Shown piece by piece: positions 1,612 through 47,276 of a DNA stretch of 64,000 nt. The notes below the pieces were generated by a model that was given only the letters and a program-made list of their open reading frames with translations, had not been told where the DNA came from and made no database searches. The stretch covers positions 328,899 through 392,898 of the forward strand of contig NW_003155738.1 of NCBI RefSeq assembly GCF_000003605.2. The letters are read 5' to 3'. This DNA is from Saccoglossus kowalevskii. Lineage: Eukaryota; Hemichordata; Enteropneusta; Harrimaniidae. Position 1 is the stretch's first letter. Every line of letters begins with the position of its first letter. The position numbers were made by a program, and so were the translations under genes.

Positions 1612-1663
1612 ATGTCCAAAGTCCGCAATTTAGTTAATATCTTTGAACACAAGAAAAATAAAA
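1612..1663 (+). CDS. Putative first coding exon of the tetra-DH/PH gene
   Basis: The ATG at 1612 opens 17 codons beginning [12 protein letters not shown], followed by a strong GTAAGT donor at 1664. The exon ends one base into a codon, and the acceptor at 3601-3602 supplies exactly the two bases needed (A plus AG gives Lys), so the join is in phase. The frame also stays open upstream to an AG at 1578-1579, so this may be an internal exon with the true start further left. No similar protein segment is firmly recognised. Confidence 0.5.
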
Positions 1664-4600
1664 GTAAGTTGTTAATACATTAACATAATAATAGTATTGA
1701 AACGTGGTAAAAAATGACTAAATACCTGACATGCTATCGACAATTCAACTGTAGTTATTTGGTAGGAGCTAGAAAAAAAGCCCGCAGGGTTGCCCACGTG
1801 TTGCGTAGGTTATTATATATAGTAGCATGCTTAGTGCATTTAGTGTCTGAACCACAGATCAATGTTTAACACGTTTTACCCTGGTTGCTATCTTAATTAA
1901 GATTAATTTAGTTTATTCTAAAAAAAAATCATTTTCATTTCACTTGCTTTGGATAATGTGCAATGGTAACCAAGCGTAATTTAAAGGTCTAACGTACGTT
2001 TTTTCATAGTCGGAAAAGCCACAATATCTAAGCTTTCAGAAGATATATAGGTTGTTATAGTAGTATGCTTAGTAACTTTAAGAATAATTGATCAATGCTT
2101 ATCACCTACATAGTTACTTATAAGTCGACTTTTGAACTAACTGTCATGAACTAGTTTTCGCGTATCTGTTGATCGACCTATTTAGCTGATTACTAGTGAA
2201 TGGCTGTGTTATATCTGTCACCATTTAGGCTCATGCGAGGTCCTGGACGGAACTTGACTTGATTTGGAACTAATTACGATATAACCGTCGTCACCCGGAC
2301 TGCTATTTCTGACAGTTGGCATTTGTAGTTTATTAATATAGTGAACGATTAATCAAAAGATATGACGTGTTCAGTACTTAGTTTGATTGGCTATGTGTAA
2401 GTTGAATGTGTGAAGGCCACGCCTTTAGAGTATTTTAACTGCTTTGTAATTGGTTAAGTTTTTGATACGTAATAAACAGTCCAAGTCCTTGGTCACAGAG
2501 AGAGAGGGAGAAGACTCCACGAGGCGAGAGAGTCTTGGTCAGTCCGGGCGGATTCTCCGACGAGGCAGTTCGCCTTGATGCGTTCTCAATGTGGCTAATG
2601 TCTAGCTATTGAAATGTATTTCGTTGTGTGCGTCTATTTGACTGTAAGGTTTAAGAGACTTTTCCGGTCCGGTACCTCAAGCAGACGAGATATAGAGACC
2701 AGACGATATTCCCCCCTGACACATGTTGGAGAAACCCAGACTAGAAGAATTTCCCCCTGATATAACCATGGTATTTATTATGTTTTGCCGGCACTATTGC
2801 TCATGTTTTGTACTGATTTATCCTGATTGGTACCTTAATTATTATAATAATAATTCAATTTATTCTCAACAACATATTTACTTCTCATTTTCAGGCAGTT
2901 AAAAAGAGTTTATGATTATAAATGTGTTTACAGACACACGGTAACAAATTGCAATAATATATCATTCATATAATTTTCAGTAAGCGAACATTCTGTTGTT
3001 TGCTCAATTCTTACCACGTGATTTTGAAACAATAATTTGTGTTTTTGCAATGTACTTTCATGTACAATATAAAAACTCGAACGTTAGAGGCACCATAGTT
3101 GTTGAAAAATTGTCACTGAGGACGTATCCTACGTCTTTGTCAATCTTTCGCGTGGTTAAGTCTGGTCAATATACAATCGCAATAAAACTAAATAGGTTAT
3201 CACCATGTAATATTTATAACAAAAAAATCGATTCAGTCTGAAAGATTTCAGATATGGGTTTACAGCCCGTAAGAGGTGCACGTACTAACCCCCTCACAAT
3301 ATCGTGCCCCCAAGCTATTGCAAAACTGCAGAAAGCCTACCATAAATTGCTGCGAAAAAAATAGTATATATTTTTGAACATAACCGTAATTTGAGTAGTT
3401 GTATATTATTATATTGCTAGCATCCTGTTGTCGATTAAAGTGTCTGATCTAAAGTCTAAATTGGACAACACAGGTATTCTTGTAATGTCAGATCTGTTCC
3501 TTCAATCAATTTATTGGAGTGAGTGCAAATGGTTTTAGGAAAACAAAATCGTACGGCCTGCACGTTGATGAATACGAATTACAATTTTCTTTGCATATTT
3601 AGAGGCTGTCGAAGCTGACACCGACTATACTGAAAATGAAGGCGCAACTGCTTGCGCTAGTTCTGACGAAGTCATGGCAGACAATGAAGTTGTTGTTGAA
3701 GAGACAGTACCAGAACCATATTGGGAGGGCGTGTCAGATAATGATGAAGAACTTGACAATGAAGATGATGACGACCTGGATGACACTGAAGTAATTACTT
3801 CCTACGATGTCTCCCTCCTCGACGACAAGTCTCCGACTATGGCAAAAGTGACATCCAAGGACGATGTTTCGGCTTTACTACCAATTAGAAAAATTGAACC
3901 ATGTTATGAAGGATTTATTAAAGTAAGAACAACAGTTTCTCAACGCATACATTGTTATTTGGTATGCATTCAATCAATTACAAATCTCGAAAATGTAGGG
4001 TCAACATCGAATAACAAACTAAAGGTGTATAAAAGTACTTAGACCACAATTGAAAAAAAAGTATAACGACGTTTACAATTCGTTTTTTTAATAACTAGTT
4101 TTATGTCAACTGAACATGTGTATTAATCAAATCTTACTGTTCGTATACAACAGCTACCATTTTCCGAGAAAGAAATCGATGACGATTGTATTACACAAGT
4201 AGACGACGAAGATGCTCTGAAAGTTGCTAAAGAACTACTCTTAACTGAAAAGAAATATGTCAATAAATTATTTCTCCTCGACCAGGTAAACATTTTATTG
4301 TTACTTTGGTTTAAATAAGATAAATTTACGTATCGTTATTAATAGTAATTTAGGCGACGAGCATGTTCCAACGCAGGCATTTAGCATAAACTGTTTACAG
4401 CAGTTTTCCTAGCCTACAATGAACCATTTTTTCATCTTCAACCTTTTAACACATTGACCAATTTTCCTTCTGACTTTCATTCTATCTCAAGTTTTTTTTT
4501 CGAATATTTAACCCTCCAAGGTATTCCAATCAAGGATAAAGACGGAAAACAAAATAAAAAAATGGTTTCCTGAAGATGTTGTGAAAGATATGTTTCCTTA

Positions 4601-7600: not shown

Positions 7601-10600
7601 CCTCAAGTGATTTGTCCACTATGTTCGATTTCTGAAAAAATGACACAAGTCCGACATGGACGATGATTGAAACTTTAACATCCACGCTTCTTGTTGTTTC
7701 GCGCGGAAAATTTAACGCGAGAGTGGTTCGTTAGTCATCGCGTTAAACTACGTTAGGGTAATTCATGAAGCAACAAACAAGATTTTAGCATCGTGGTCAT
7801 GTCAGTATGTCAGTATCACGCGGTGATCAAGTCGCAAGTCGCAAGTGAGCCTCAATGTAAAATTTCCAGTCACATGATTTTAAGAGTTGGCAGGTTTGGT
7901 TCGATCCGATCTTTTTTTTTCAAAATAAGCAGCCAAACAGATCTCCCTTTTAAACGGAGTAATACCAGACTGTCACGACTATAATTAAAAATGTCATGGC
8001 CACGTGTACATTATACAGATACCGTGATTGGTTGAACTTGAGGCAATGTATACGGATAGGAGTTATTTTTGCTATATTGTGGTCACAGTGCCAACAGCCA
8101 TTGTCCTCTCCCTGTACCCATGTAGTGTTTGACAAGCCCTTGGATGACTAATTATATGTAAAACTGACGAAGCTGAATATAAGTTTACCAATGACGACGA
8201 AAACGGCGTCAGGTGTTAACGTTTGGCCTGCTGTCGACCCCTACGCAAAACCCGCCCGTATGATACATGGGTGGATGGCCAGACTTGATCATTTCTTTTG
8301 ACTGGTAGTTACGTTCCATGGCACTGTATTTTGAAACAATGTCGCATTTGAAAAGTTCAAATTGCCGTTGGAAGTCAGATGTTTTTGACTGTAACTTATC
8401 ACGGTAACACTTTGTGTTTGTTCGTCTTTTCAGAGGCACTGCAGCTAATCTCATTGGCCGCCCAGAGTTGCAACGAAAGAAAAAAGGACACGGTACGTTC
8501 TTGTTTCATTTGTCAGTTTGTTTGTATGTATATATGTACGTACTTGATAACATTGTAAATAACCGTTTATATGATGCAGGAAATGCTCCAGAAAATACGT
8601 ACACTGCAGTCAGTGATTGACGGTATAGACGACCTAACCGGACACAATAGAATATTGAAGAAAGAAGGCACATTAATCAGGTTCAAATCTAGAAGCGGTA
8701 CCCAAACCCAAGTGTTCTTAGTAAGGATTATACACTTGCAAATTCAAGTGCTAATCGTACATTTGGTAATTTTTTGACACATAAACCGTATCGATGTTTG
8801 AGGCTATGCCTTGTAGGGTGTTATGGTTATCTCTCTATCAAACGGACCAATCCGAATGTCACCAAAGTTAGAGGGCGTTAGTTGTTTGTTCAACCCCAGG
8901 TTTGACTGACATACGTATAGCCACTTCTTTAGCATATTGTTGAATTGTACTCTACCAACCTGTATATTGAATTGTTGCTATCAACGTATTCTTACTCTGT
9001 ATTGTTGATGTAATTTAGTTCAACGATATGTTGCTGTGTTGCAAGATAAGGAAAACGAAAGCAATTAAATATAAAGTCATCGACCGGCTGCAAACCAGAG
9101 ACAATATGAAGGTACATGTGTAACAGAAATCTCTCATATTTGCAAATCATATTGAGTTGATATATTACAGGAATTGCTCGTCACTAATATATTGTTTTCA
9201 TACAGGTGAATCGATTTGTTGAGAATAAGTTTGTGGTTAGTACAACAGACTCGATGCTCACTCTTGAAGCTGAATCCGAAGATGAAATGACATCATGGGT
9301 GAAGGTGAATTAATATTAAATATTATGTGGAATACATGACTTAATTGTCTGGCATTAGTGAATCTTAAATGTGAAATAATTACTCACTACAAATACTTAC
9401 TCGTATACATACATATTTTACATTTTTACAGACAATCCAAGACGTGATATGGAAGTATGTGAAAAAGAAAGATTCATTTCAACTGATGGATAAGCCGGTG
9501 AATATTTATTTACATTCGATAGATCTATAATACACAACAGTCTGCGCATATTGCCAATTGTGTTCATGTGTTAACAGTTCGGGCTTTCTGCATCCTTTTT
9601 TACACACACATATTTAGACATACTTTTAACTACAATTTTAAGGAGTAGTATTTGCACATGGAAGCATCACATATTTTTTCCATTTAGAAACTATTCGAGC
9701 GAGACATTTTCAGGAAACATAGTGAAGCAGACAGTGACACGAACAATGAGGATATGTCTAGCGACACACTAGAATCTGTCACGTACAGTATTGACGTCAC
9801 CTCGCAACACACACTTGCAAATGATTCTTGCGTTTCAAGTGCCGATCCAGATGAAAGAGGATCTTTTATGGAACACGCCGGTTTTCATGACAATAATGAC
9901 AGTAGCCATGGAGAGGGACACGTTGCTAACGGTGGTGATAAGTTTTTTGAGGATGATAGCACTGAACTTGCGAGTTCAACTTCAACGACTAACGCAATAA
10001 AAGTGAGTAAATACATCTATAGTATAAATTTGAATTCTATCCTTATCAGATCACGATATTATATACAAGCCATGTCTAATATTACGTTTTCACTAGTTAC
10101 CTTTCAACGCTGATGAACTAGTTATGCACACAGAAGGCATTCAAGACAAAGCGCATCAGATTGCATTAGAGATACTGGCTACTGAGAAGAAATACGTGAA
10201 TAGATTGTTTTTAATTGACCAGGTAAAAGCATTCGATAATAAATATTAATACCAACATATAGTATCAACATAAGCAATAGTAACGTTAGATAAATCAATA
10301 ATAGTCAGCACATTTGCCACGAAGAATGAACGTAACACAAACGAGCTTGGCATCAAAATGTTATACTATTATTAAAATAAATGTTATTTTATAAAATTTA
10401 TATTTCATTACATAAAAAGCAATTTTATTTTGTGAATTCATATACAAGACATCAGTTGTTTCTAAAATTCAATATATTATGCCAGATTGTGTTTAGTATA
10501 CTAGTATAATTTTTCGTTCTTTATACAATCCCTGCTCGCCTGGGACTTAAAAAAGATGAACATAGATGTTGCAGTGGTCCGGGGTTCGTCCTGGAAACAT

Positions 10601-13600
10601 CATTTTTGAAGTGATTTTTCATATATAACTAAGAGGTTACCCTTGACACAAGTATTTTTCATTCATAAATCTACAGATTAAGAATAAATTTTCTTGAAAT
10701 TCATGTGGGATTGCCTTTTAATCTGAATCTAGTTGCAATGGAAAATAGTTTCCAATGATTATTTTCTTCCATACACAATTTTTAGAAAAGATTCCCTTCT
10801 TTAAAAAAAATCAATCGATTAGATTTTAGCAGAGATCTGAAATTTGTATTTCAATGTGAGATCATTATCTGATTTTTTGATTGAATAAATTCGATAATAA
10901 ATTAAAATGTGATATATGTCCATGTGATAAACGCGTTTTGTTAAATGAAGACCAATACAATATAACAGATGTTTACGCTCATGGACTGTCTTCTAGTATA
11001 CTAATTAATTTGTATACCATCTTTTAGGTATTTCGTTCTCGGATTACAGAAGAAAACGAGTCGAAGAAGTGGTTTTCCTCCAGTGTTATTAAAGACATGT
11101 TTCCAAACATTACACCTATTTACAGATTTCATTTTGATGTATTTTTTCCGGCACTGAATGATCGTATGAAAAACTGGTATGTATACATGTAATAAACGGG
11201 TCAATTAACGTGACTAGTGAAATCTGGTGTATGACACGTGTAAAAACATGGATAAACGAATTTCACACCTTCTTGGTTCATTGTAAAAAAAAGAAAGTTT
11301 ATTCAATATTCACTGTAAGCGGACATACACTGTCGGGACATCACCCTTCTGGTTTATGCAGCAATGTATCGAATGTAGCCACCATATTGACTTTTGACCG
11401 AATAGTACGGGAATTTGGAAGATTTCTATACGCGAGAATAACGTGAAAGTGAAAATGTGACAAATAATAAAAGTAAAAAAAAACCTTGAGAACTCCATGT
11501 TTTCCCGCCAAAATTGTGCTGTATTATTTTGCTCAGTGATTTTTTTCCTACAATTCCGTTGTTAGTTTTGAACCAAATGAGTATAATAACTTTACAGGTC
11601 GTGATCGTAAATTTCGAAATATGATGTCAGTATTATGCAGATTAGAATTTTGAAAGGAGCGATTGACATTGCCATTCAAAACATTATTACACAGTAGAAG
11701 TAATATAAGCATGGGTATAGTTAGTGTTGCCGTCAATTATTTCATGACTATTATACTCATACACTTAATCATTGTAATATTTTGAAATATTTCTCGTGAT
11801 CTCATTGATGATTTCAGGAATATCACTCCAAAAATAGGGGATCTTTTTAAGACTTTTGGACCATTCTTCAAAATGTATTCTGAATATGTTCGAAACTCCG
11901 ACCACGCCATCAAGATATTGAATACTTGGATGGAGAAAGAAAGTGGGTTTGTCGAGTTTGTCAAGAAAATTCAGGTAATAACACACTTCGAACGGAAAAG
12001 AGAAATAATTACATTGTTTGTAAACAAACGATAATAATATCATAATATCATAATAATACCATAATATCATATGTTTAAAAAAATATTTAATACAGAAAGA
12101 CGAAGCTTGTGGAATGTTGCCGTTAGCGAACCATATGTTGGAACCGATACAGCGAATCTGTAGATATGAAATGCTAATTAAAGGTGAGACTTGAGATATA
12201 TAAGATATATAAGAATATTTTATGAGTAACCCTAAACAATTTAATTCATTACACGAGTGCATTAATCATAAATTAAGTTTATTGAAGCTGATATTTTAAA
12301 TTCATAAATTATATTTTCTGTTTATCTTTACTAAAACTATATCATAACCAATATTGCATAGTAACGCCAATGGCAGCTACTATAACAAAATTACTATATC
12401 AATATAGAATGACTCGCTGAACCAACTCATTATATTGTGACTGGCAATTGTATGTATATTTCGAATAGCATAGATTACAGCCTGAATGATTCTTGATAAG
12501 TACAAAATCGCAAAGTAAATGTTGTTTGTTCATAAGGTCTAATTAACCTACTCCAATTAACCAACATTTGTGTATTATTAGGCGTGACCATGTGTATTAT
12601 TGGTTGCCAAGAATAATGTTGTGTAATGACGCAAATATCAATGATACAACATACTGCACCAATTGTTTTTGGAAGAAAAACATTTTAAAACTTCATTTGC
12701 ACAAAGCACTTATTACCCAAATTTACTATTCGAAATATATTTAAGCAATAATATAATCGTTACTAAAAATAACGCCATTTATTTTCCAACAGAATATCTC
12801 AAATCTTTGCCAAGAGACTCAGAAGATAAATTCGATTCAGAAGGTTGGTCAACTGGGGTTGAAATAAATTAAATTTCATTCTTGCACACTTTCATTAATA
12901 TATGCACATCCCACAAGGATTACATATTGTCACCAAGCAATTTCATTTGCATTCTATTGTGCAAACATTTCATAATACTAGACATATTGCTCAGAAATAT
13001 ATTGTTATTGACAAGAATACTACTGTTAAAATGTTCCGAAATTAAATTGGTAAAGTCATAATATTTACATTTAATATGTCACACATATATATATACACTC
13101 AGCTTTGATTTGTTTCGATTTTACCTTCATTAATCAGATGTGGATGATATATATTTCATAGTATAGTTACATGCACTATGAATATGAATATCATTGCACA
13201 TCTCGAACTGATATTTAACAGATGCTTTGGTCCTAATATCCGCGGCTACACAGAACTGCAATGAAAGTAAGAAGTATATGGTAAGTTCAGAAACATTATA
13301 CATTTCTTTCCATATTTGATGTGGTTCTGACAATACATGCTCTTTTGATACTGATGTATTTTATATGACCTCACAGGAAATGAGTCACTCAATGCGGAGA
13401 CTGAACTCATCCATAGAGGGCATCGATGATTTAAATGTGTCTCGCAGAATTCTACTGAAAGAAGCAAAGTTATCTAAATTCAAAGGAAAGCAAAGCACGC
13501 CCATACAGCTATTTCTAGTAAGAATTCATTATTTCAATAATGTGGATTTTGTGTAAGAGTTTTATAAACATGCTAACTAAGTTGTTAAATGTGTAATACT

Positions 13601-16600
13601 TAATTTCCGATTTATAATTATTAGTTTAACGACATGATTCTGTGTTGCAAGATCAGAAAACTGAAAAGTATTCGTTACAAAGTAATGGACAAACTCGATT
13701 TCGAGAACGAATTGCAGGTAATTATATTGGTTATTGTAACGTTGAGAGTGACCAACTGATACTTTGAATGACGAGCTGCAACTCAACTCGGTGTGTCATT
13801 TCTTTCGTTTTGCTAGGTTTATGATTTCCCTATCGGAGTACATGTCACATGTTTGATGTTTTATCACATGATTTTATTCGCTCACTTTGTTGAATATTAG
13901 GTTGAAAGGTTTGTGAACAATAAGTTTAATATATCGTCTTCAGCAACAATACTGACACTAGGGTGCATATCAGAGGATGACATGATTCAGTGGGTTGAGG
14001 TGAGTTTATGTAACGTGTATATACGACATTTTTAACATGAGTCAAATTTTCGAAAATGCACCATTTGCTTAGTTTTGTTTATTTTTAAACAAACATGACG
14101 TGCTAAACTATTTTACTATTAATAGGATATTCAAAATGCAATGGACGATTTCACCAAGAGAAGAGCGTCGTCTACGGTCCTACAAGGCATTAATAGATCG
14201 GTAAATGTTATATTTTGTTTTTCGAAATATATATTTTATCACATTGTCTAATACTATATAATCCATCTGTTTCTTGGTACATGTACTGCCCAGGTACATC
14301 ATTATCCGTTTATTTATCACTTCTACATATTATCCCAGATGCCATCAATGTCACTTTCATTTTGATTTCAATATGTGGTGTGTACCGCATGTATAACACA
14401 ATGTGATCATACTTGTAGACCACCTCGTCGGTGAGCGCCTTAGGGCCTGTGTCATATTCTCAGTTTTGGCCACTTTTGCAATGTATTGTCTATATACCGT
14501 TTGAATTGCATGCATATGCATAAACTTGTACTTCTCTATGGAACTTTTGTTTAATGATCAATCACTCGGAATGTTATTCAACCATGATTACCATAAAATG
14601 ATTAATAAAAAACTTTTCTGATTAATGTTTGCAGCTCACTTATGTTGAAGCAGATGATCGAGAGGAATCTGTTCAACATCTGATACAAAGTGAAGATGAT
14701 GTCTTTATAGACATGGCTGAGCAACCGATTCAGGATGGCCCCGGCAATGATATCACTTGTTTACCGGTGATAGAATCCCCTGACGTTCCAGCTAGTAATA
14801 CTACTCATAAATCTGATACTGATGAGGAGGATGTAGTTATTCAGGGGATTGGTGATTCTGAGGACACAATTGTCGAAGACCAATCCATTAAGGTGAATCA
14901 CTCAATTCATGACATACAATTACAGCCTGAAATAAAAAACAATTCAATTAGATGGACAAAATGTAACACGATATTTTTGTTTGGTTTTCAGTTGCCATTT
15001 TCAGCAGATGAGCTTGTAGAGACGCGGGGAGTCCAGAATAATGCACATAATGTTGCTCAGGAATTATTGATTTCTGAAAGAAAATATGTGAATAGGCTCT
15101 TCCTCATTGACCAGGTAAGTAGTTTCAACACGAATTCATGTCGATTAGAATAGAATATTTTCGCCCTCACTATAGCAATATATCTAAGAAATGATCTACT
15201 GGGATGAATCAACTCTAGACAGACCTCCGTCAGTTTTAAATTTTCAAGGACATACTCTTTTTATTACTAATATTCTGATCACAATAACGAACTTCGAGTT
15301 ATAGTGCCACCAGTAAGTTTCCCTGTGAAAACGGAGGGGGGGGGGATTTCTAGCTTGCGGAATGTATTCGCTGGTTTCACTGGTTCCAGGCGTTTTGATG
15401 AGTTATCGAACGTTTACACGGCGTAAACATCTCCCAGAATTGGACGTTGTTCACACCAGGTACTAAGGTATAAAACTCGAAACTTGTATATTGTCTCCCA
15501 TTCTATGAATTATGATTGAGTCTGATTGAATTATCGTAGTGTATCATGTGCATAATGTGAATAACTATGGTTATACTTTGAATAGTTTCAAATGCTGAGA
15601 TATGTTTTATAATTGATTAGTTATTTAACTGTCACAGTTTAGTCAGTTAGTCTAGGGCTTCCCCTTTGCAGGCAGATAACATCCAACAAAATCGAACTAT
15701 TATGACAATGTAACAGTATGTTATTGTTGATATCATTCCAGGTATTTCACTATAGGATAGAAAACACCAATAGCTCAAAAAAGTGGTTCAGTGGTGATGA
15801 TCTCAAAGCTATCTTTCCTGATATTAGATCAATATACCAATTTCACCGTGAGATATTTTTGCCAGCATTGGAAAACCGGTTGAAGGAATGGTTTGTTGTC
15901 AATCACTGTCTCACTATCAAAAACATATATACACAATGACTTGTGCTGGGAAATTAGTTTGCTAAGTCCAATGTTTTATGTATTTTGCAGGAACAACACT
16001 CCTAAAATAGGCGACGTTATAAAATCATTTGGACCATATTTCAAGATTTATTCCGAGTATGTGCGGAATTCGGAGCAAGCCATCCATTTGTTGAAATTGA
16101 ATATGTCAAAGTCAACTGAGTTTTCAAAATTTGTCCACAATATTGAGGTATATAAGTACAGGCTGTTTACGAACATATACACACGCACACACAAGATTCG
16201 ATCTCATGACAACGGCAAGGCGCTAGCGCATCGCTACTGTAAACGCGCCCCATACTGACTAAATACACACGCGCAAGCCAACTCTGTAACGTCACATGCA
16301 ACGTACATATAAAGCCAGGTATAAAGTTGTCATTCACGCAACATAAATTCAATTATGTGACTGTGTTGTTGAGGCATTGATTACATTGTGCTTTATTTAT
16401 TATCAGAAAGACGAGGCGTGTGGTAAATTGAAATTGGCATCTCATTTACTGGAACCAGTTCAAAGAATATGTAGATACGAAATTCTTCTTAAAGGTAATA
16501 TATGAAGTTACAAATTGAATGTCGCAACAAATTATATATTATATCCTAAGATATCAAGCTGTACAACGTAGCACTACCATTTTGTATATACTCGTATTTT

Positions 16601-19600
16601 AATATGGTTTAGTATATGAGGGGCGTTCAATAAGTAATGCCCCTTACCCATTTCCCATAGCTGGAGATTAATGACACTTGGCACAGTTATTAGTCTTTCT
16701 CTACATAGGAACCACCCAGAGTTATGCATTTCTCTCATCGTTTGATGCAGCTCTGGACACCAGGTTGGCCGTCCAACCATGTCATCTGGGAAACGCTTTC
16801 CTTTCAAAAAACAACTTAATGGCTGAGAAGAGATGAAAGTCACTCGACGCTTTCTTGCTTCTGGAAAGGTGTGAGCAACCTGGGAATCCATCTGGCAGAC
16901 ACCTTATGCATATGCAAATGGTCATGAATGATAGTTTCCACAGACCCTGTACTAATCTTGACCTTCAGGCTATTTGGCGAATAGTAGTGCGTCGATCTTC
17001 CAAAATGGCTGCCTCAACTTGACGGACAGATGCCTCATTAATGGCAGAAATCTCCTTTGTTGTGCGTCTTTTCAAATACAAAAACCGGATTACTGCACTC
17101 AACTGACTCCATCTCACACTTGACTCAGTTCAAACACCTGTAAATCAGAAACCACAATTAGTTCAGAGCTGTTTTTGGAAACATAACCCATAGAGATGTA
17201 AATCATTAACATGCAAAATTTCATCTAGATCAGACAACTGGAAGTGGGTCAGGGGCATTACTTATTGAACGCCCCCATTCATATATTCGGCCAAGCGTCT
17301 TTATTTACTTCACTGACACAATGGTCTTCACATTTTTCTTATTTGTAATGCTTGTAAATACGCACAAACTTTTCAAACCAACCTCGCCATCTCAGGTCAA
17401 ACACACACTTTCCTAATTGCATCACCCCTACCACTACCATCACAATCAATGCCTTAATGACCATAGGCGATATTATACATCTCGCCATGCGTATTTTTAA
17501 TTTAAAGTTTAATAAAAAATAACACAGCATTATATACAACGAGCATTTGGATATAAATCTAATAGACTATACCGAATAGAATGAATTATATATGTGGATA
17601 TCTTAATTTTCATAGATAGAGATGGATACAATTATCCCTTCGCCAATGAAACGCAGTCGTACTATTATTTTTAAGAGAAAATGCCACACAACATTTCAGA
17701 GCACTACATTCGTCACGCAGCACGTGTTCGAATTTCGTGTCAATAAATAATCTGTTTTACCCGTTTATCGAACACATGGCGTCACGAAAATCATGGCGAA
17801 TGAACACATTAGTCCTTTGGGAAAACATTTTAGTTAGCAATACACCTTACGTTTTACACTCTGTGTGTTGCTGTTCCAGAATACCTGAAGAATTTGCCAG
17901 ATAACTCGGACGATTACATCGACACTGAACGTAAGTTTACTGCCAACACATTTAAACCACATTCACGATCAAATATTAGTAATTATCTGAAATTCAATGC
18001 GTGTGTTTATTTATATTCTCAAAGCCACCACAAGCATATATGTACATTATGAAAATATATAATGTGTACCATTTATTTATATAGAGGCACTGTTCTTCAT
18101 CTCAACGGCGGCTCAGACGTGCAACGAAAGCAAACGTAATTTGGTAAGTTCATTTTTCGATGCATATACAATATTCCAAAAAATCTAATTATTCGGTGCC
18201 AATTACCCATTTGTTATTAATTAATTAACAGGAAAGAACAAACGAATTACGGAAGATACAAAGCTCAATAGAGGGAATTTCGAATTTATTGGAGCACAAT
18301 CGAGTACTTCTCAAAGAAGGTAGATTGATGAAGTTCAAAGGTAGAGGTGGTACTCCAGTCCAGGCATTTATGGTGAGTCCGCTTTAGCACATAAAGTATT
18401 CATACCATTAGAATGTGATTATCGGCACACACTAAACAAGACAATTCTAAGATACGCATGTCATATATAAGAAGCTATTGCTGAAATATGCAGTACGGCG
18501 GTATCGTCGGACTTAAATAAACTTTAATTCCCATATACTCTAATGATTGATTAATAATGATTTATGTCGCAAATATAATAATTTTATCACATTTTAAAAA
18601 TTGTTTGTGAAATTGTCAAAATGAAAACTTTATTATTAAATTAAAAAAATAGCCTTCGACCTTATTATTGAAAAACACGTCCTTTTCTTCTGCTCAACAG
18701 TTTAATGACTTTTTGCTGCTATGTAAGATCCGTAAGGTGAAGTCACCAAAGTATAAAGTCTGCGAGAAATTAGAAATTATTGACAATATGCAGGTTTGTA
18801 TATATCATACAGGTAATTCGAAATTAAGAAATAAGTATTTTGCAAATTACAATGCATGAGCAGTTTTCCTCAATTGTTTTATTTCAGGTGAATCGTTTCG
18901 TTGAAAGCAGATTTGTTGTCTCTACAAAGAACTCATATATCACACTGGAAGCCAATTCAGAGGAAGAACGAGACGAATGGGTCAACGTGAGATTTTTATC
19001 AATTTGTAATCATTAGCTGATTCACTTGCGCAAAATTACTTTATTTAATAACAATTATCCGATTAAGTAACATAATCATATATACTGGTGGTTACGTAAT
19101 TGTATTTCTTTACAGGTTATAAAGGAAGCAATTCCAGAGCAAGAGAAGAAGCGATTGTCCTTTCTGACAACCAATGAAATGGTAATAGTGTAACCCAATG
19201 TATTTCACATGATATATATAGTGTCAATGTTTATGTGTCATAAAATTAATATTATAATTAATGACAATTTTAAGTTATAACCTGCTATTTTTTCAACTGT
19301 ATGATCACTGTATGATGTTTTGGCATGTGATATCGTTATAGCCACGTGACAACCCCATGATATTTTCTGTTTAATCCCTATAATCTATTTAATTTATACT
19401 TTCCCTTGTGGTGTAGGGCTTTGATGTAACTAAAATCACAGATGGACGAGATAACAAGGAGTCGAATAACCTTGCTCAAGCAGGCATGGAACAACCGATT
19501 GTAGTTGCCCAAAAACCTGTGTTACAGATTACACATGTAGCAAATGAAGAAGATATTCACATTAACTCGTCGTCCACGAACGCTTCTTCAATATCGTCAC

Positions 19601-19714
19601 CCATACTGCTAGAACCTGAGTCTGATAACATTTGTAGAGACAACGATGATGATGATCATGAGAATGACGATGATGATAACGACAACGACGACGACGACGA
19701 CGATGATGATGATA

Positions 19715-19753
<39 letters not shown>

Positions 19754-22700
19754 ACATGACTTGCTCTTACGACTTTTCAAAAGAATATGATAAACCAGCT
19801 AACGACGAGACCTCAACGGCTGTATACGAAAATGTAACATTAATGGATATTAAGCTATTAGCAAGCCAGGGGGATGTGCGAGACTTTTACACGAACGATT
19901 TAAATAATGCCGAATTATTTGAACTTGATTCTGAGGATGACATTCCTATTGGCGATTCAGATGACTTTGATGATGACTTCAGTGACGCCTCAGATGACCA
20001 CAGTCCGCCAAATAACGCCAAGGAATTTGATAGAATTGAAGGCAAGGGAGTGGGGTGTTTACCAATGATTGGAACGAAACCAATATTGGTAGGATTATTT
20101 TATAATAATCATTTATAATTAACAAAATCTATATTTGATGATCTTAGAATTTTATATGAAAAATGATCACATACAATTTTTTATAGTTACCATTTACACC
20201 TGAAGAGCTGACTATGTACATGACTGGAGATAAAGCTTGTATAGTTGCAAATGAAATTTTGGTTACAGAGAAGAAATATGTAAACCGACTGTTTCTCATT
20301 GACAAGGTAATTAAAAACACATAATGCAATTACACATTTAATTCCTGATTTGTTTCGAAACTGTAATATGCATTATAATCGAAATAATTTTGAAATTGTC
20401 ATAAGCAATATGTTGATTGTTTTTGTGGAGCTTTTTAAAATATTTTAATTGTTTTTTACGTGATATCTCAAATAACCATATTAGTGGACCAATCAGAGAA
20501 AGTCTTGTAAACACTGATTATACCATATGGGTGTCAATTTCATCCCTCGAGGGACATATTGCAAACATGGGATGCACGTCACTGTTTTAATATAAAGAAA
20601 TAATAAGTAATGATATGCATTTGAAATACACCGTACAAGGTGGTTGACTTGACTAAATATGGATCTCTTTGTTAATACTCAGATATTTCGTACTACCATT
20701 GAGAAGAGAAACTCGGAAAAAAAGTGGTTTCCTTCCCATTTGATCAATGATATGTTCCCAAATATAAAACCAATCTACCAGTTCCACAGTGAAGTTTTTG
20801 AACCGGCATTAGACGCACGAATAAATGAATGGTTCGTATACCCTCCACTGCATTTTGATGCACATTTTTAGAATTTGCATACTCATTTAAATTCATAAAA
20901 TTGTGTCGGGTGAATTTGAAACAAAGCCTGTTCAATATAGCCAAGAGCATGGATATGTGACCATAGAAAAACACTTTTACTGTTTTACTGCACGGAAGCT
21001 AAAAGTTATTTTAAAAAGACACTGTCTTCTTTCGTCCAAACTATCAAACCAACTGTTTTACAGAAAACGACATGCCTTAACATTCAAACAGTTATTTCTG
21101 GCAGATATAACTAACTTATGGTTAAATGTAATAACACCATTACATAAACGTATATATTGTTGAGTTATAACAAATTAATATTCTTATATTCTTTGTATAT
21201 GACATTATATATTCACCATAACAACGCACCACAAAGGACTAACAACCCAAGAATAGCTGATCTGATAAAAGAATACTGCCCGTATTTCAAGATGTATTCG
21301 GAATACGTTAAAAATGCTGACCACGCTGTCAAACTACTGAACATCTGGATGAATAAAGTACCGTCATTTGCTAGATTTGTGAATAGTATTGAGGTACAAC
21401 TTGTTTAAATATATGTATTTATATTTATCTATGTTAACTATATCGTTGATATATTTATTTTATTTTCGTTTTTTAGTCTTTTTATAGCTGAAATATCATA
21501 AAAGCCATAAATATAAACATCTACTTATGTCTGGATATAAGGGAAGGGCATTTTTGTTTCAAACAGCAACATCAAGACGTATCTGAGGTCCACTTTGACG
21601 AATTTATTTTTTAATTGGGTAAAAAGACTAACGCAATCGAATAGCATGAAACTTTATTTCAGTAAATATGACTTTACTTCAAATTATTCTCTCTTCTTCA
21701 AATGTTACATCAGCCGAATACAAATGTGTATAGATAGCGACATTCACAATGTCAAAATTGTTTTGCAGTCGCCAATAAAAAATAATATATTTCAGTGAAT
21801 CAGTATTTTCTAAATGACGAACTACTGCACAACACAACACAATACAGTATTTTTTTTTATTTGAACGACAATGTTTACGACACGGCACGTATAAAATAAT
21901 TAATTTATTTGTCTGTGTGTTTATTTACTAACAAATTATTTATTTATGATATTATTAACTTAAATGTCCCTGATGTAGAGAGATCCAGCGTGTGACAAAT
22001 TGAAACTATCTCACCACATGTTGGAGCCTGTACAAAGAATATGTCGTTACGAACTATTGTTAAAAGGTTGGTGAATGTAAATATATTGATGAATTGAAAA
22101 TATATTACATGCACTGAGTAATTGCACACCAATACCAATAATACCAATAACATATTATTATAAATCTTATTTTGCAGAATACGCAAAAACTCTCTCAGAC
22201 GATTCTGAAGAAAAGGATGATGCAATTGGTATGTCAAATCATTTAGACGTACATTGCAGTCGTTTAATAATATTAAGCGGTATTTGACCATTGATCATTC
22301 TTTGTTTCACGTGGATCTCACAGTTCAAATATTTTATATCTACAGAAGCTATGCAGCTATTCTCCACCGCTGCCCAAAGGTGCAATGAGAGTAAACGAGC
22401 CATGGTATGTTTGATTTTTGAATTCTAGTAAATATAGTGTGTTTGCGCTCATCACCGTGGTACGGGCAAAGTTTATATAGTCGATGTACATAATGCATGA
22501 TTTGAACAATCGAATCAAATCTGTGAATCAATTAATGTTCATGTATATGAGTAAGTATTTGCAAGAATTTATTTTGGATAGATAGGCAAATGGGCATAAA
22601 GTGCATTTACGTTGGAGCATCATATGTGAAATTGATAAATTATAAAAAAATAAATAAAATTGTGTTTACAATATTGATAAGAACAGACGTACAACAAACA

Positions 22701-25700
22701 CGATACTAAACCAGATTATTATCTTGCGTTTTTTCTCATGGAGAACGCATTTTCCCCAAATCAACAATATTGTTAACAAGTATTATAAATCTAGGATGTA
22801 TGCAGAGCATAACTTTCCCACATAATACACTTACAAAACACATGTTTGCTGTGCTACATGAAGAGCTGGATGTACTAACCTTTTTTGTAACAACTATAAT
22901 TAATATTGATCAACACTATATAAAATAATATGTCAATATTGGCAAATATCGCGGGAAACTAGCTTATTTTGGTATGATTGACCTTTCTATTGTTACTAAA
23001 TGTTTCACTACACAAAAACTTGAAATTGTTTTCTAGGAAATGTCCATTAAAATAGCAGAGCTGGAATCAACCATTACCGGAATTGATGACTTGAAAGGAT
23101 ACAACAGAGAACTACGTAAAGATGGTAAACTGACAATACATGGAACAGATCGCACTAAGATTCAAGGCCATGTTTTTCTGGTAGTTACATATTTTTTAAT
23201 AATATCAACGATATATTGTCGTTTCTTTGTAAGGCGTTCAAGAGTAACCCTGTGTGAGATAATGCCTTAACATGCATGTCACTGTTATATAAATATATTA
23301 CTTTGTCTCAACTAATTAACAGTTTAATGATATGCTGCTAACTTGTAAGATTCGGAAGATGAGGTCAATGCGGTATAAAGCTATTGGCAGATTCAATATC
23401 AAGAACATATTACAGGTAATCATGTTGATAATTAAAACCTGCGTTTCCACATTTACATTCAATATAAAACATTGCACGTGGTATTACTCGCCCGAGTGCC
23501 TGGGTGTGTTTCTAAGTCCGAGTAGACTTTTTTGATATACACACTTCTTGGCGTTACTGCGACCATACGATGGGCATCAGCTGGTTACGATTCAGCAAGA
23601 CAATGCGGGTTTCAATCATTGAGGCAGATAATAGGAATATGATATGTTATGTGTAATTAGCACCCCATTGAAATGTACTATATGATTTATATAGTTACAT
23701 AGAAACTGTTGATGAATGTATACAAAATCGAGCATTAAAAACATGATTGATTAAACAATTTTGTTGTATGAATATAATGATCTTTACTGTTCGATAACAC
23801 AAAGGCAATAGTATTAAAACAAGATAAACAATCACTAAACGTAAACTCCAATAGCATTTATTGGTGGAAGTTGTTAATCAACACGTACATGTATAAATGT
23901 GGCCTTATCCTGTGCAGGTAACATCGCTTTCAGAGAATGTGTTCGAAGTCGCAACTACGCAAAATGTACTTTCACTCGAAGCGAGGTCGGAGGATGAGAG
24001 AAATCAATGGCAAGCGGTAAGTCAGTATAATATATTAGCACTATGTATTACAACCACCGCGAGAAATGTCGATTTACAGATATAAACCCATAGTTTGAGT
24101 TAGTGCCTAGTACATTGCACGAGGACATTCCGAAAACTCAGTAAAAAGAATAAATTACAGTAACAGCGTTTATGATAACCATGTAATCACTGCCATTTCA
24201 TTACAGGTTACATTTGTGCATGGTACGCTTGACTTTCAATTTAAAGTACATTAAATATTATAGTTTGTGAATTACAAAAGGAATTGAGTAAATGCTTTTA
24301 AAGATTTTTAAAATCGACTGGGAGACAAAATGAAATTAATGACAGTTAGTAGAACTATATTCAAAATTACAGAAACACACTAAAATTGATAGAAGAAATC
24401 AGAACCGTCTTAAAATTAAGAATAAACCTGCTTCCACTAGAGTGTCTAAACTTTTACGTGAAGTGTGCACAGAATTACGTAGTGTTTGTCGTTTTTTAAA
24501 TGCTGTAAACTGTAGAGCTGTACAATATATACCAATGAACTGTGTTCTATCGCTAGGCAATTCAAGACGTTATATACAAATACAAGAAAGAGTCTTTCGT
24601 GGTGCAGTGTAATTCATGCCGAGAAGACCTTGGGACTTCGGAAGGTCTATGCGCTTGTACTTCTTGTGGATGGGTATGTTGTGATGTTCAAAACATCCTA
24701 CTATTTTACACACTGTAAGATATAGTTATGCGAAGATAGAGCATCATAGTCGTGACCGATCACATACAACGTCTCCAAATATATATTTTAATACGGAATT
24801 GTAGAGTGCGCTGCTTGCATGATGTTTTAAAGTTTTAATGTCATTGACCTTTTACAGAAGCAGTGCAGCAAATGCTGTACTTTCTACGAGTCGGCTGATA
24901 ACGAGGTAATTACCCCATTATGCCACGTTTGTTCTATGGAGCAGCAACATGAGATGGAACAGGACGAAGTTGACGGAAATACTGGTACTCCGATCAAGGT
25001 ACATTTGTCGAATTGCAGGGTTTGGTTTTGAAGGTAGTCAGTAGATAGTAACTGGAAGATTTGTAAAATGTGTCCGATCCCTGTTTACACGTAATAGTTG
25101 GCAGATCATAATTCTTTATTTCAAAAACAATGCACCACGAAATGTCGGGAATTTGTGCAGCGGTTTGCTTAGAAGTTAGAAATCGTCCGTGTGGTTAGTG
25201 AGTCAAGAGTTGACGACGCTCCTCAGCAAATGCCATGCGATTAATTTGCAGATGAAAGTGTTCTGGATTTGTGAACGTAAACACAAATCATAACGGGTTT
25301 GTTATTAATGATATTTACAAATCTGGACAAACATTCGAATATTGTTGGTTTACGTGCCGTTGCAATACACAGTGATACAATACATGATAAATAACATTAA
25401 TAAACCAACACAACATTTGCGACACGGTGTTTGGAAGCATGTGTGAATGTACATTTACAGAGCTAGAATTAAATTTTAAAATCCGTCAACATATTCTTAT
25501 GCTGATTTGTGCTTAAATGTTACCAATCTCAAGCATGTCAATCACCCTCGCCTTTAATTTACCTTTTGAAACTTTAATAGATACTCAGTAAAGCACCTGT
25601 CAAACAAGATGAAGATGGCGATAATAAACGTGATGAGATGGCTGGATCGTTGTATTACATTACAACTGATGCAGAAGGTACATTTGGTGACTGGTCAGAG

Positions 25701-26963
25701 AAATGGTTTGTGTTAAGCGACCGCAGCTTGTATATGTACAACTCGCCCGAGGTAATTATATTGAATAATTTGGTATTGCGTTCGAGGGGTGTTTTGTGTG
25801 TAAATGTTGGCGGGAAAAACCCTGGCATTCAAGTTGGTAATATTATAAAGTTGACATGCTTCGATTTATATATGAAACACACTCTTCGCACAGTGTACAC
25901 AGTCGCCAACACTAATTGTAAATACTGTTCTTAAACTGCACACGTTTGACCTATGTAACATGTATTCAGTCACTTTGTGCATGGGTTCTAACAAATACGT
26001 GATTTCTTTATTCTTATTTCTAGGAAGGTGGTCCCATTCAGACTATTCCACTATGTGAAGCGACACTGACGGAAACATCGGAAAGTGACTGGGGTGACAA
26101 GTCAACGTGTTTTCAGATGATGTATGAGAATATCCAATATTATTTTTCTGCCCAAGACGAAAATATTAAATCAGAGTGAGTTTCATGTCGATTATTAAAG
26201 TAATATCGGTAATGACCATATGAAATTAATTAGAAAACCCTATTATGTATCCAGAAACATGAATTACAGAACAATGTACGCATCATTTCCAATTATTATT
26301 GTTTTTCATTTTCTTCGATCCAACCGTTTGGTGTATGTAACTGAGCAATATGGAAAAACACGGTTTAACTTTCTTGCTATGAGCTTCGTTCACGAAAAAA
26401 TATCCGCCGTCTTTAAAATATAAAAACATAAGACAATCGTATGTATTGTACCCTGTGCAATGTCGCGACATGATTACACGTGGAAACTGAAGATGATACA
26501 ATGACTACAACTGACCCGTTCTGACCTATCCGTAAAGTATAATAGTACTAATGTACATGTAAATCTGTATTTCCATGTCCAACAGCGCGTAGTAATTGTA
26601 TGGTGTTGTACGGGGTATCGGTAACCCACCGATTATTGTAGTATGGAACGATTTCAAGATGGCGGACATGTTTGAAATCAAAATTCGTGGCAATAACGTT
26701 TAAATAGATTTCATCATTATTCATACCCCAAATAGTTAGATTGGGGAGATGTACGATGACAGAATTATTATGAGGACACTGAAAAGTGCCCATCTATAGA
26801 ATACGCGCACTCGTAGACAGATGTGCGTACTTTGCGGTATTTATGTAATTTTATATTCCGTACAATAATGATTCAGTTACTGAAATAACTCGCATTTTTC
26901 ATTTGTAGGTGGTTTGAAAAAATATCGAAGTTCACGAGTTGGAAAGAAGATGGTACAGACTAG
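1612..26963 (+). CDS. Tetra-DH/PH FGD-like Rho guanine-nucleotide exchange factor (49 exons, about 2,103 aa)
   Basis: DH-PH proteins catalyse GDP/GTP exchange on Rho-family GTPases; FGD members act mainly on Cdc42 and link membranes to actin. Joining 49 exons with GT-AG borders and matching phases gives one frame ending at TAG 26961-26963. Order by residue: acidic N-terminus 1-124; DH1 125-336, PH 337-469, linker 470-574; DH2 575-784, PH 785-920, linker 921-1006; DH3 1007-1215, PH 1216-1348, linker 1349-1572; DH4 1573-1780, PH from 1781, FYVE-like finger about 1907-1960, last PH about 1995-2100. No stop codon or promoter-like break separates cassettes, and only the last carries FYVE and PH2, so one gene is favoured over four. 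The start is uncertain: the ATG at 1612 lies in an exon whose frame stays open upstream to a possible acceptor at 1579. The family is certain from sequence; the single transcript is inferred from phase only. A poly(A) signal AATAAA occurs at 27587. Confidence 0.85.
1664..3602 (+). other. Intron 1 with a GC-richer, LTR-like block
   Basis: No exons are seen. The part at about 2465-2770 differs from its surroundings: AATAAA at 2470 is followed by a purine-rich GAGAGAGAGGGAG tract and a more GC-rich stretch, reminiscent of the polyadenylation and R-U5 part of a retroviral-type LTR. No flanking duplication or internal coding region was found, so this is only a suggestion. Confidence 0.25.
3603..3922 (+). 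CDS. Acidic N-terminal exon preceding DH cassette 1
   Basis: One 320-base exon encodes about 106 residues rich in Asp and Glu, including NEDDDDLDD, with no recognised domain. It begins after TATTTAG and ends at an AAA|GTAAGA donor in phase 0. Its composition matches the acidic linkers before cassettes 2, 3 and 4, so it is probably the equivalent pre-DH segment of cassette 1. The frame also reads on through the donor to a stop at 4042, but that extension is intronic. Confidence 0.75.
4154..10002 (+). CDS. DH-PH cassette 1 and acidic linker
   Basis: Exons: 4154-4285, 4521-4669, 4831-4987, 5149-5236, 5567-5617, 8434-8492 (DH); 8580-8720, 9019-9111, 9206-9304, 9432-9497 (PH); 9688-10002 (linker). 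The DH domain starts with LPFSEKE and has conserved region 1 as [18 protein letters not shown], with the Glu that in DH domains contacts switch 1. Conserved region 3 reads [17 protein letters not shown], and the C-terminal helix carries the conserved Asn in SCNE. The PH domain contains [12 protein letters not shown] and ends in the usual Trp helix (TSWVK). The first exon equivalent (4154-4285) is 132 bases, the longest of the four. The 105-residue linker is Ser/Asp-rich. A 2.8-kb intron splits the DH domain between 5617 and 8434. Confidence 0.85.
5618..8433 (+). other. 2.8-kb intron with degenerate repeat units
   Basis: Intron inside DH1. It holds three diverged copies of a short unit near 6316, 6453 and 6536 that share TTTGGCCATACATG-like and ATCAAGTTGAT blocks. 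Sequence around 6765 (CCAATATGGCGGCC) resembles common dispersed repeats. No coding exon is seen. Confidence 0.4.
6316..6640. repeat. Degenerate direct repeats
   Basis: Three related segments begin near 6316, 6453 and 6536. The last two share GGCCATACATG, an AAATATCAAGTTGAT core and a CATGAA-type 3' block; the first shares AAGTTGATCGG and CATTCATGA. Spacing is irregular (about 137 then 83 bases). They produce the small open frame at 6429-6632, which is not a gene. Confidence 0.5.
10097..14892 (+). CDS. DH-PH cassette 2 and acidic linker
   Basis: Exons: 10097-10222, 11028-11176, 11818-11974, 12096-12183, 12793-12843, 13222-13280 (DH); 13377-13517, 13625-13717, 13901-13999, 14126-14200 (PH); 14635-14892 (linker). 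The DH core shows [36 protein letters not shown] and [15 protein letters not shown], closing with NCNESKK. The PH shows [12 protein letters not shown] and IQWVEDIQNAM. DH exons 2-6 are 149, 157, 88, 51 and 59 bases, identical to cassette 1. The 86-residue linker is rich in Asp, Glu and Ser, including DEEDVV. The Glu, Lys and Asn positions usually needed for exchange appear present, so activity is plausible. Confidence 0.85.
10223..11027 (+). other. Intron within DH2
   Basis: AT-rich intron between DH2 exons 1 and 2. No coding exon, transposon terminus or tandem repeat is seen. Confidence 0.5.
14992..20088 (+). CDS. DH-PH cassette 3 and long poly-Asp linker
   Basis: Exons: 14992-15114, 15742-15890, 15991-16147, 16407-16494, 17880-17930, 18085-18143 (DH); 18232-18372, 18701-18793, 18888-18986, 19116-19181 (PH); 19417-20088 (linker, 224 residues). 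The DH has [47 protein letters not shown] and TCNESK. Here the acidic residue before the AL in the last DH exon is Gln instead of Glu or Asp. The PH has [12 protein letters not shown] and DEWVNVIKEA. The linker exon is the longest of the gene and contains a long Asp run. The 1.4-kb intron at 16495-17879 carries a mariner-like insertion. The antisense poly-His frame across this exon is a shadow. Confidence 0.85.
16614..17283. mobile_element. Mariner-like non-autonomous element in intron of DH3
   Basis: Near-perfect terminal inverted repeats of about 25 bases, GGGGCGTTCAATAAGTAATG onward at 16620-16644 and its complement at 17251-17275, flank about 0.66 kb. The repeat pattern is typical of mariner-family ends, and TA dinucleotides sit just outside both ends. 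The interior is too short for a full transposase, and I recognise no catalytic motif, so this is a deleted or MITE-like copy. The minus-strand frame at 16574-16891 lies partly within it and is not a credible gene. Confidence 0.7.
19640..19758 (+). repeat. GAT/GAC microsatellite encoding poly-Asp
   Basis: An imperfect GAN trinucleotide tract inside linker exon 19417-20088 encodes a run of more than 30 residues that is almost all Asp, with a few Asn, His and Glu. It stays in frame. Such tracts expand by slippage and are often length-polymorphic. Confidence 0.9.
20187..24016 (+). CDS. DH-PH cassette 4
   Basis: Exons: 20187-20306, 20683-20831, 21237-21393, 21979-22066, 22178-22228, 22346-22404 (DH); 23037-23180, 23323-23415, 23918-24016 (PH). 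The DH has [18 protein letters not shown] (Lys replaces the final Gln of the other copies), [26 protein letters not shown] and RCNESK. The first PH exon is 144 bases instead of 141, adding one residue. The PH has [18 protein letters not shown] and ends [15 protein letters not shown] across the next exon. This cassette leads directly into the FYVE-like finger, as in ordinary FGD proteins, so it is probably the ancestral position. Everything from the last bases of exon 21237-21393 onward is duplicated at 42.65 kb. Confidence 0.85.
24557..24998 (+). CDS. FYVE-like zinc finger exons
   Basis: Exons 24557-24673 and 24858-24998 encode the end of the PH helix and a Cys-rich segment: CNSC, then [15 protein letters not shown], then LCHVC. 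The spacing fits the eight zinc ligands of a FYVE domain (CxxC, CxxC, CxxC, CxxC), with two extra Cys. FYVE domains bind phosphatidylinositol 3-phosphate through WxxD, RR/KHHCR and RVC motifs; none of these is visible here, where EGLCAC stands in place of the basic motif. Zinc binding is therefore likely, but classical lipid binding is doubtful. The finger is followed by a Glu/Gln/Asp-rich spacer. Confidence 0.8.
25581..26963 (+). CDS. C-terminal PH domain exons and stop
   Basis: Exons 25581-25751, 26024-26175 and 26909-26963 encode a PH domain starting about GSLYYITTD, with the typical [18 protein letters not shown] strand pair and a closing helix [13 protein letters not shown] that holds the conserved Trp. 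The exon at 26024 ends at GA|GTGAGT, two bases into a codon, and the acceptor ATTTGTAG at 26901-26908 completes the Glu codon. The TAG stop lies at 26961-26963. This matches the second PH of FGD proteins. The copy of this region at 46.7 kb has lost its middle exon. Confidence 0.8.
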
Positions 26964-44900: not shown

Positions 44901-47140
44901 AAAGGCAATAGTATTAAACAAGATATACAAATCACTCAACGTAAACTCAAATGGCATTTATTGGTGTAAGTTGTTAATCAACACGTACATAGAATTTTAT
45001 AAATGTGGTATTATTCTGTGTAGGTAACATCGCTTTCAGAAAATGTGTTCGAAGTCGCAACGACGCAAAATGTAATCTCACTCGAAGCGAGGTCAGAGGA
45101 TGAGAGAAATCAATGGCAAGCGGTAAGTCAGTATGATATATTAGCATTATGTATTACAACCACCGCCAGAAATGTTGATTTATAGATATAAACCCATAGT
45201 TTGAGTTAGGGCCGAGTATATTGCACGAGGGCATTGCGAAAACTCATTAAAAAGGATAAATTACAGTAACAGCGTTTATGATAACCATGTAATCACTGCC
45301 ATAAAACACTCATTTCAATACAGGTTAAATTTGTGCATGGCATGCTTGACTTTCAATTTAAAGTACATTATATGTTAGAGTTTGTGAATTACAAAAGGAA
45401 TTGAGTAAATGCTTTTAAAGATTTTTAAAATCGTTTAGGAGACAAAATGAAATTAACGACAGTTAGTAGAACTATATTCAAAATTACAGAAACACACTAA
45501 ATTGATAGAAGAACCATCAGCACCATCTTAAAATTAAAATGCAGCTAAGAATAAACCTGCTTCTACTAGAGTGTCTAACCTTTCACGTGAAGTGTGCACA
45601 GATTTACGTAGTGTTTGTCGTTTTTTAAATGCTGTAAACTGTAGAGCTGTACAATATATACCAATGAACTGGGTTCTTTCGCTAGGCAATCCGAGACGTT
45701 ATATACAAATACAAGAAGAAGTCTTTCGTGGTGCAGTGTAATTCATGCCGAGAAGACCTTGGGACTTCGGAAGGTCAATGCGCTTGTACTTCTTATGGAT
45801 GGGTATGTTGTGACGTTCAAAACACCCTACAATTTTCCACTCTGTAAGATATAGTTATGCGAAGATAGTCATAGTCGTGACCGATCACATACAACGTCTC
45901 CAAATATATATTTTAATACGGAATTCTAGAGTGCGCTGCTTGCATGATGTTTTAAAGTTTTAATGTAATTGTCTTTTTACAGAAGCAGTGCAGCAAATGC
46001 TGTACTGTCTACGAGTCGGCTGATAACGAGGTAATTACCTCATTATGCCACGTTTGCTCTATGGAGCAGCAACATGAGATGGAACAGGACGAAGTTGACG
46101 GAAATACTGGTATTCCGATCGAGGTACATTTACCGAATTGCAGTGGATAGTAACTGGAAGATTTGTAAAGTGTTTCTGATACTGTTAGCACGTAATAATT
46201 GGCAATGCAGTGAGTCATTTATTTCAAAAACAATGCACCACGAAATGTCGGGAATTTGTGCAACGGTTTGCTTACAATTTAGAAGCTAGAAATCGTTCGT
46301 GTGGTTAGGGAGTCAGTTGACGACGCTATCTAGCATATGGCATGCGATTAATTTGCAGATAAAAGTGTCCTGGATCTGTGAACGTGAATAATAACGGGTT
46401 TGTTATTTATGATATTTACAAATCTGGGCAAACATTCGAATATTTTATGATTTACGCGCCGTTGCAATACACAGTATTATAATAATGAACATTAATAAAC
46501 CAACACCACATTTACGACACGGTTTTTGGAAGCATGTGTGAATGTACATTTACAGAGCTAATATTAAATTTTAAAATCCGTTAACATATTCTTATGCTTA
46601 TTTGTGCTTGAATGTTACCAATTTCAAGCATGTCAATCACTTTAATTAATTTTTTGAAACATCATAGATACTTAGTAAAGCACCTATCAAACAAGCTGAG
46701 GATGGCGATAATAAATGTGATGAGATGGCTGGATCGTTGTATTACATTACAACTTACGCAGAGAGTGCATTTGGTGACTGGACAGAGACATGGTTTTCAA
46801 AATAGGATAGGATGTATTATACCCTGTGCAATGTCGTGACATGATTACACGCGGAAACTGAGGATGACACAATGACTACAACTGACCCGTTCTGATAAAT
46901 CCGCGTCATAAAGTGTAATAGTACTAATGTACATGTAAATCTGCATCTCAATATTCAACAGCGCGTAGTAATATGATGATATTGTACGGGGTATCGGTAA
47001 CCCACCTTATTAACAAATGGGAATTCCAAATGTGGAACGATTACGCGGTATTTTCAAGATGGCGGACATGTTTGATATCAAAATTCTTGGCAATAACGTT
47101 TCAATAGATTTCATCATTATTTATACCCCAAATAATATGA

Positions 47141-47266: not shown

Positions 47267-47276
47267 TTATTATTAC

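Follow-up and report, generated by a model that had tools for sequence, protein, structure and literature searches.

A candidate Saccoglossus kowalevskii RhoGEF gene with four tandem FGD-like DH-PH cassettes, a FYVE-like finger, and a C-terminal PH domain

Analysis of the window (the whole 64-kb stretch of DNA studied here) points to a single gene that would encode a RhoGEF with four FGD-like DH-PH units in one chain, followed by a FYVE-like finger and a PH domain. RhoGEFs are usually viewed as one catalytic unit with regulatory domains, and the known kinds carry one DH-PH unit (FGD) or two (Trio/Kalirin). Judged from its sequence, the four-unit chain would lie beyond these one- and two-unit kinds. 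The best-known exception to the one-unit RhoGEFs is Trio, which has two units with different targets (Rac1/RhoG for one GEF domain versus RhoA for the other; PMC9467883, excerpt). Among the literature matches listed for multi-DH and RhoGEF proteins (titles and abstract openings, from a collection that leaves out most subscription journals and animal protein databases), none was a RhoGEF with at least three DH domains; GxcDD has one DH (PMC1914345, excerpt). Such proteins may already be present, unannounced, in animal protein databases. A constrained chain of four units would allow two tests, namely, whether the gain in local GTPase activation from linking like units exceeds the sum of the single units, and whether splicing tunes the number of units.

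Gene model and domain content

Rebuilt from the raw sequence, 49 exons between 1612 and 26963 on the plus strand join in phase into a coding sequence of 6,312 nt, which translates into 2,103 aa with one terminal stop. All of the introns have GT donors (48 of 48) and AG acceptors (48 of 48), and we hold the structure of this four-cassette model with high confidence. The model upholds the in-phase protein of about 2,100 residues that had been proposed in an earlier note on this DNA. That note placed 49 exons in 3603 to 26963; 48 exons start in this range, and the total of 49 is reached by counting the upstream exon at 1612 to 1663. The features of the gene are listed below.

1612..1663, plus strand: coding exon 1; ATG at 1612, phase 1 out, in phase with 3603, upstream of the earlier range
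3603..3922, plus strand: exon 2, acidic linker 1; 31% Asp/Glu
4154..9497, plus strand: exons 3-12, cassette 1 DH-PH, aa 125-469; RhoGEF E 1.9e-44
9688..10002, plus strand: exon 13, acidic linker 2
10097..14200, plus strand: exons 14-23, cassette 2 DH-PH, aa 575-920; RhoGEF E 2.9e-44
14635..14892, plus strand: exon 24, acidic linker 3
14992..19181, plus strand: exons 25-34, cassette 3 DH-PH, aa 1007-1348; RhoGEF E 2.1e-47
19417..20088, plus strand: exon 35, acidic linker 4, 672 nt; GAT repeat giving an Asp-rich run
20187..24673, plus strand: exons 36-45, cassette 4 DH-PH, aa 1573 to ~1905; RhoGEF E 4.5e-45
24557..24998, plus strand: exons 45-46, FYVE-like finger (begins within exon 45 of cassette 4); eight Cys, by eye
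25581..26963, plus strand: exons 47-49, C-terminal PH and stop, aa 1979-2103; PH E 5.4e-12

The 5′ end of the gene is unproven because, read by eye, the sequence from the 3′ splice site at 1578-1579 to the start codon of exon 1 has no in-frame stop, and because a run of 2,445 N, either a gap or masked sequence, abuts the window start directly on its left. Since no stop precedes this ATG, the N terminus could extend upstream. Further cassettes were sought upstream, in C4505:289000-328950 (C4505 being the contig that holds the window). With E allowed up to 0.5, this region, which contains N runs of 2,445, 1,261, and 122, gave no match.

The four complete DH-PH units in one chain described by the earlier note were recovered with Pfam. 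The Dbl-family hallmark, a DH followed by a PH, is present in every cassette: RhoGEF scores are far above the cut-off in all four DH domains, and the SOS1_NGEF_PH model is over its cut-off in all four PH domains. The general PH model exceeds its 25.1-bit cut-off in cassettes 1 and 4 only, with 24.5 bits for cassette 3 and 13 bits for cassette 2. Linker 4 has no Pfam family over the cut-off. Its Asp-rich run is encoded by the GAT repeat at 19645-19750 (35 copies), which is likely a length-variable site.

At the 3′ end, the domains follow the order DH-PH-finger-PH. The tail had been read as FYVE-PH, and the PH half of this reading stands, as a single C-terminal PH (E 5.4e-12). The FYVE half does not. 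The finger scores 10.4 bits where Pfam requires 27.8 for FYVE; two unrelated models do equally well, and the score is indistinguishable from chance. Of the solved structures, the WDFY3 FYVE matches it best, at E 0.24, and the genome search for FYVE, which gave 14 matches, did not recover it. By eye, eight Cys stand in a zinc-ligand arrangement. The motifs that define FYVE domains are WxxD, RR/KHHCR, and RVC, of which FGD1 and frabin lack WxxD (PMC3865658, excerpt). By eye, none of the three occurs in exons 45-46, and the finger reads GLCACT where RR/KHHCR is expected. Because the score is far below the cut-off and the defining motifs are absent, the finger is FYVE-like at best. Compared with solved structures, the tail PH matches FARP1 best (E 2e-8) and also FGD6 (E 1.5e-7).

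Origin of the cassettes and continuity of the chain

Several features relate the four cassettes to one another. First, their exon lengths correspond. The first exon measures 132, 126, 123, and 120 nt in cassettes 1 to 4, respectively, the last one 66, 75, 66, and 117 nt, and the four cassettes share exon lengths of 149, 157, 88, 51, 59, 141 (144 in cassette 4), 93, and 99 nt. Second, intron phase is identical at every exon junction within the four units. Third, the proteins are 49-54% identical in pairwise comparisons over 325-343 aligned residues. Finally, the Nei-Gojobori method gave a pS of 0.78-0.84, which is saturated, and a pN of 0.285-0.312 in all six cassette pairs, with dN values between cassettes of 0.36-0.40, and at the DNA level only four pieces of 55-120 nt match between cassettes, at 73-82% identity. 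Because the exon architecture matches, pS is saturated, and dN is 0.36-0.40, these comparisons indicate that the cassettes are an old intragenic duplication in which every unit has been under long-term purifying selection.

The junctions also bear on what was duplicated. Blocks 2 to 4, each consisting of a linker and a DH-PH unit, begin and finish in phase 0, and linker 1 is entered in phase 1. Exon 45 runs the last PH helix of cassette 4 into the finger; the equivalent exons of cassettes 1 to 3 also have such a K-rich stretch but terminate shortly past it. This difference suggests duplication of the linker and DH-PH portion of an ancestral DH-PH-finger-PH gene. In the mechanism that we propose, an exon block bounded by phase 0 and made up of an acidic linker and ten DH-PH exons would have multiplied in place, and the locus would be translated as one protein carrying four units.

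The sequences between the cassettes are consistent with such a protein. The introns there measure 190 and 94, 434 and 99, and 235 and 98 nt, and the three intervals that the earlier note had named for checking, 10003-10097, 14893-14992, and 20089-20187, are the 94-, 99-, and 98-nt introns that lead from an acidic linker exon to the next DH exon. In the frame needed to join the cassettes, the exons of linkers 2 to 4 stay free of stops for 315, 258, and 672 nt. Random sequence from a first-order model with intron composition stayed open at these lengths in 13, 49, and 0 of 20,000 trials, respectively, the last figure carrying the caveat that the GAT repeat of linker 4 favors openness. Asp and Glu make up 22-32% of the four linkers. 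A search for exon 1 gave no counterpart between the cassettes, the next-best match in the window having an E of 0.10, at 3355. From the sequence, we infer one shared transcript, and one protein, running through the four cassettes.

The strongest rival reading is variable unit use by splicing, in which the locus would give several products, one- to four-cassette GEFs made through alternative splicing or internal promoters, and the four-DH protein would be rare or absent. We regard this as possible, though doubtful. Units 2 to 4 could be skipped in frame together with their linkers, having phase 0 at both ends, and splice variants without the tail domains are described for frabin (PMC3865658, excerpt). 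AATAAA motifs at 14604 and 14931, in the inter-cassette introns, are weak evidence for possible early transcript ends. However, all four linkers are open in the frame required for one chain, exon 1 has no counterpart between the cassettes, and the finger-PH tail follows cassette 4 only. Within the preferred reading of one four-unit protein, splicing could still vary the number of units 2-4 without a frame break, because these units begin and finish in phase 0, but this is a weaker step of the proposal than the others.

Exchange residues, relatives, and predicted activity

Residues E56 and N238 of P-Rex1 are required for exchange (PMC12569377, excerpt), and the columns aligned with them are Glu and Asn in all four cassettes. 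In the P-Rex1 chain used for the alignment, NETK has its Asn at letter 204 and TERDY its Glu at letter 27; the Glu five letters before the TERDY Glu was taken as E56 because the spacing from 56 to 238 is 182. E56 then aligns to E27 and N238 to N206 of the cassette alignment. Since E27 and E32 are both invariant in the four units, as is N206, the result is independent of which Glu is E56. Invariance extends to the basic residue in the QRICRY motif and to the Leu that precedes EP, and at the five positions checked the residues are the same in all four cassettes. All four DH-PH units are probably active in exchange.

Among solved structures, the only set in which this ranking applies, the DH appears closest to the FGD DH, with P-Rex1 close behind. 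A profile of the four cassettes matched FGD5 best (2e-40), compared to 1e-37 for P-Rex1 and 2.4e-35 for FGD6 (DH alone; 125.5 bits over 181 positions), and cassette 3 alone also found its best solved DH-PH match in FGD5. P-Rex1 is a Rac GEF, and because it scores close behind FGD5, the GTPase target is uncertain. The Leu before EP is presumably where the DH domain senses residue 56 of Rac or Cdc42. It leaves specificity undecided because P-Rex1, a Rac GEF, also has Leu there. The GTPase residues Trp56 and Phe56 are named for Rac/Cdc42 discrimination, with no DH-side residue given (PMC7156542, excerpt).

Comparison with known systems used a Pfam scan over the whole protein, in pieces, for accessory domains. 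The FGD family (FGD1-6, including frabin/FGD4) shares the order DH-PH-zinc finger-PH, which in frabin is DH-PH-FYVE-PH (PMC3865658, excerpt), and the cassettes match FGD5 and the tail PH matches FGD6. Unlike the FGD proteins, which have one DH-PH unit, the present protein has four, its finger is without the FYVE motifs and far below the Pfam cut-off, and its acidic linkers are long. FARP1 and FARP2 (FRG) share DH-PH-PH, and FARP1 gives the best solved match of the tail PH; however, no FERM was among the Pfam matches here, and the PH domains are separated by a finger. Trio, Kalirin, and UNC-73 also have more than one DH-PH unit per chain (for Trio, PMC9467883, excerpt). The two units of Trio are of distinct specificity, whereas the four here are similar and FGD-like, and no Sec14, spectrin, SH3, Ig, or kinase domain was among the Pfam matches. 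Finally, P-Rex1/2 are highly similar in the DH (the four-cassette profile matches at E 1e-37) and share the exchange-critical Glu and Asn, but the Pfam matches here include no DEP, PDZ, or phosphatase-like domain.

With moderate confidence, we favor a single gene for an FGD/FARP-related RhoGEF, (linker-DH-PH)x4 plus a FYVE-like finger and a PH, that would work as a membrane-recruited array with one target. Its product would most likely be a multivalent GEF of Cdc42 type, related to FGD and FARP, whose tail binds membranes; Cdc42-specific activity is described for frabin and FGD1 (PMC3865658, excerpt). Anchoring of the protein at phosphoinositide membranes would fall to the C-terminal PH, perhaps together with the first PH domains. 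The four DH domains, on flexible acidic linkers, would all act on one kind of GTPase, with Cdc42 the likeliest, and recruitment of a single molecule would then give a burst of local GTPase activation. More tentatively, and with considerable doubt, the array may consist of four active units of the same specificity whose number, set by in-frame splicing, determines the strength of a local Cdc42 pulse.

Two other readings concern what the units do. In the first, which we consider rather unlikely, the chain is a scaffold in which at least one cassette is catalytically dead and binds GTPases or inhibits the other cassettes. It is general knowledge that duplicated domains often specialize, but here both exchange-critical columns are conserved in all four cassettes, and pN is similar across the six pairs with pS saturated. 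In the second, which the earlier note had put forward, the four units would activate different GTPases, as the two GEF domains of Trio differ in specificity (PMC9467883, excerpt). The units have diverged to ~50% identity, yet they resemble one another in exon structure and have the same residues at the five examined positions, a weak argument, and no finding here favors several GTPases at once; we consider this reading improbable. Multivalency toward one target appears likelier than several targets because the five positions are identical and the best solved match is FGD5.

Genome context and partial copies

The genome searched comprises 572 Mb in 4,830 contigs. With cassette 3 as the query, 22 of 23 matches fell in the four-cassette gene. 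Cassette 1 gave 36 matches at E up to 1, distributed as 30 in the gene, 1 in a copy at 42-50 kb, 2 in a downstream fragment, and 3 elsewhere, and the tail, at the same limit, gave 9, with 5 in the gene and 4 in the copy at 42652-50297. Because nearly all of the matches lie in the gene or its copies, the genome shows, at the sensitivity used, neither a second, allelic contig nor a close paralogue. Profile searches of the genome gave 24 RhoGEF matches (7 in the four-cassette gene) and 14 FYVE matches, whose translations are not FGD-like by eye, and in this exon-by-exon search no contig had both kinds of match, which left no canonical FGD of this genome to compare with the cassettes. Control genomes gave RhoGEF matches in 0 of 14 and a FYVE match in 1 of 14, below the cut-off. 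The cassettes were also compared with one stretch each from eight other RhoGEF contigs.

Tandem separate genes or an assembly artifact, the outcomes that the earlier note had raised against its own reading, are very improbable and neither is favored: the locus does throw off partial copies and N runs lie nearby, but separate genes as the main reading are opposed by the open linkers, the 94-434 nt introns between cassettes, and the single start exon and single stop recognized, and an artifact by the saturated synonymous sites and by there being only four short DNA matches between cassettes.

Two partial copies of the gene were found to its right.

42652..50297, plus strand: decayed partial copy (copy 2) of the gene's 3′ third and 3′ flank; matches 21380-28946, introns included, in four pieces
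C4505:396229-398813, 3.3 kb right of the window: third partial copy (cassette 4); six pieces match 21267-24096, 78-92% identical

Several exons of copy 2 are missing or broken, and it was therefore rejected both as an additional functional gene and as another 3′ end for the main one. Exon 38 keeps 14 of 157 nt and exon 42 keeps 7 of 144 nt, exon 39 has lost 13 nt, exon 48 is absent, and the counterpart of exon 41 has a stop in the cassette frame; the copy also contains an N run at 48032-48295. Over aligned letters, its identity to the gene is 94.4% in exons and 91.4% in introns. The differences number 15, 9, and 23 at codon positions 1, 2, and 3, respectively, of 280 each. Such an excess at third positions would be compatible with purifying selection acting on the intact gene, or on gene and copy alike until the copy decayed. 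The third copy starts at a different breakpoint from copy 2 and, being partial only, was rejected as a working gene. The same segment thus appears to have been partially duplicated repeatedly, and the locus may still be generating partial tandem copies.

Other elements were seen within and around the gene. Rfam at gathering scores and ARAGORN each gave 0 matches in the 64-kb window. Intron 28 contains, at 16613-17285, 46-nt inverted ends that are 89% identical around ~0.6 kb, possibly a mariner-like remnant. Between the gene and copy 2, the minus strand at 31060-32111 has open frames with matches to von Willebrand D (E 2.8e-11) and a laminin-G-like domain (E 5.6e-17). At 35483-36541, there is a 352-aa open frame that is reverse transcriptase-like (E 1.4e-4, below the Pfam cut-off) and LINE-type by eye. 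The minus strand at 52426-54580 has three open frames with no Pfam match at E 0.01, which we take, also by eye, to resemble a histamine N-methyltransferase-type enzyme. Finally, a long inverted repeat lies at 57029-57427 and 59371-59801, with 434 aligned letters and arms that are 82% identical and ~2 kb apart.
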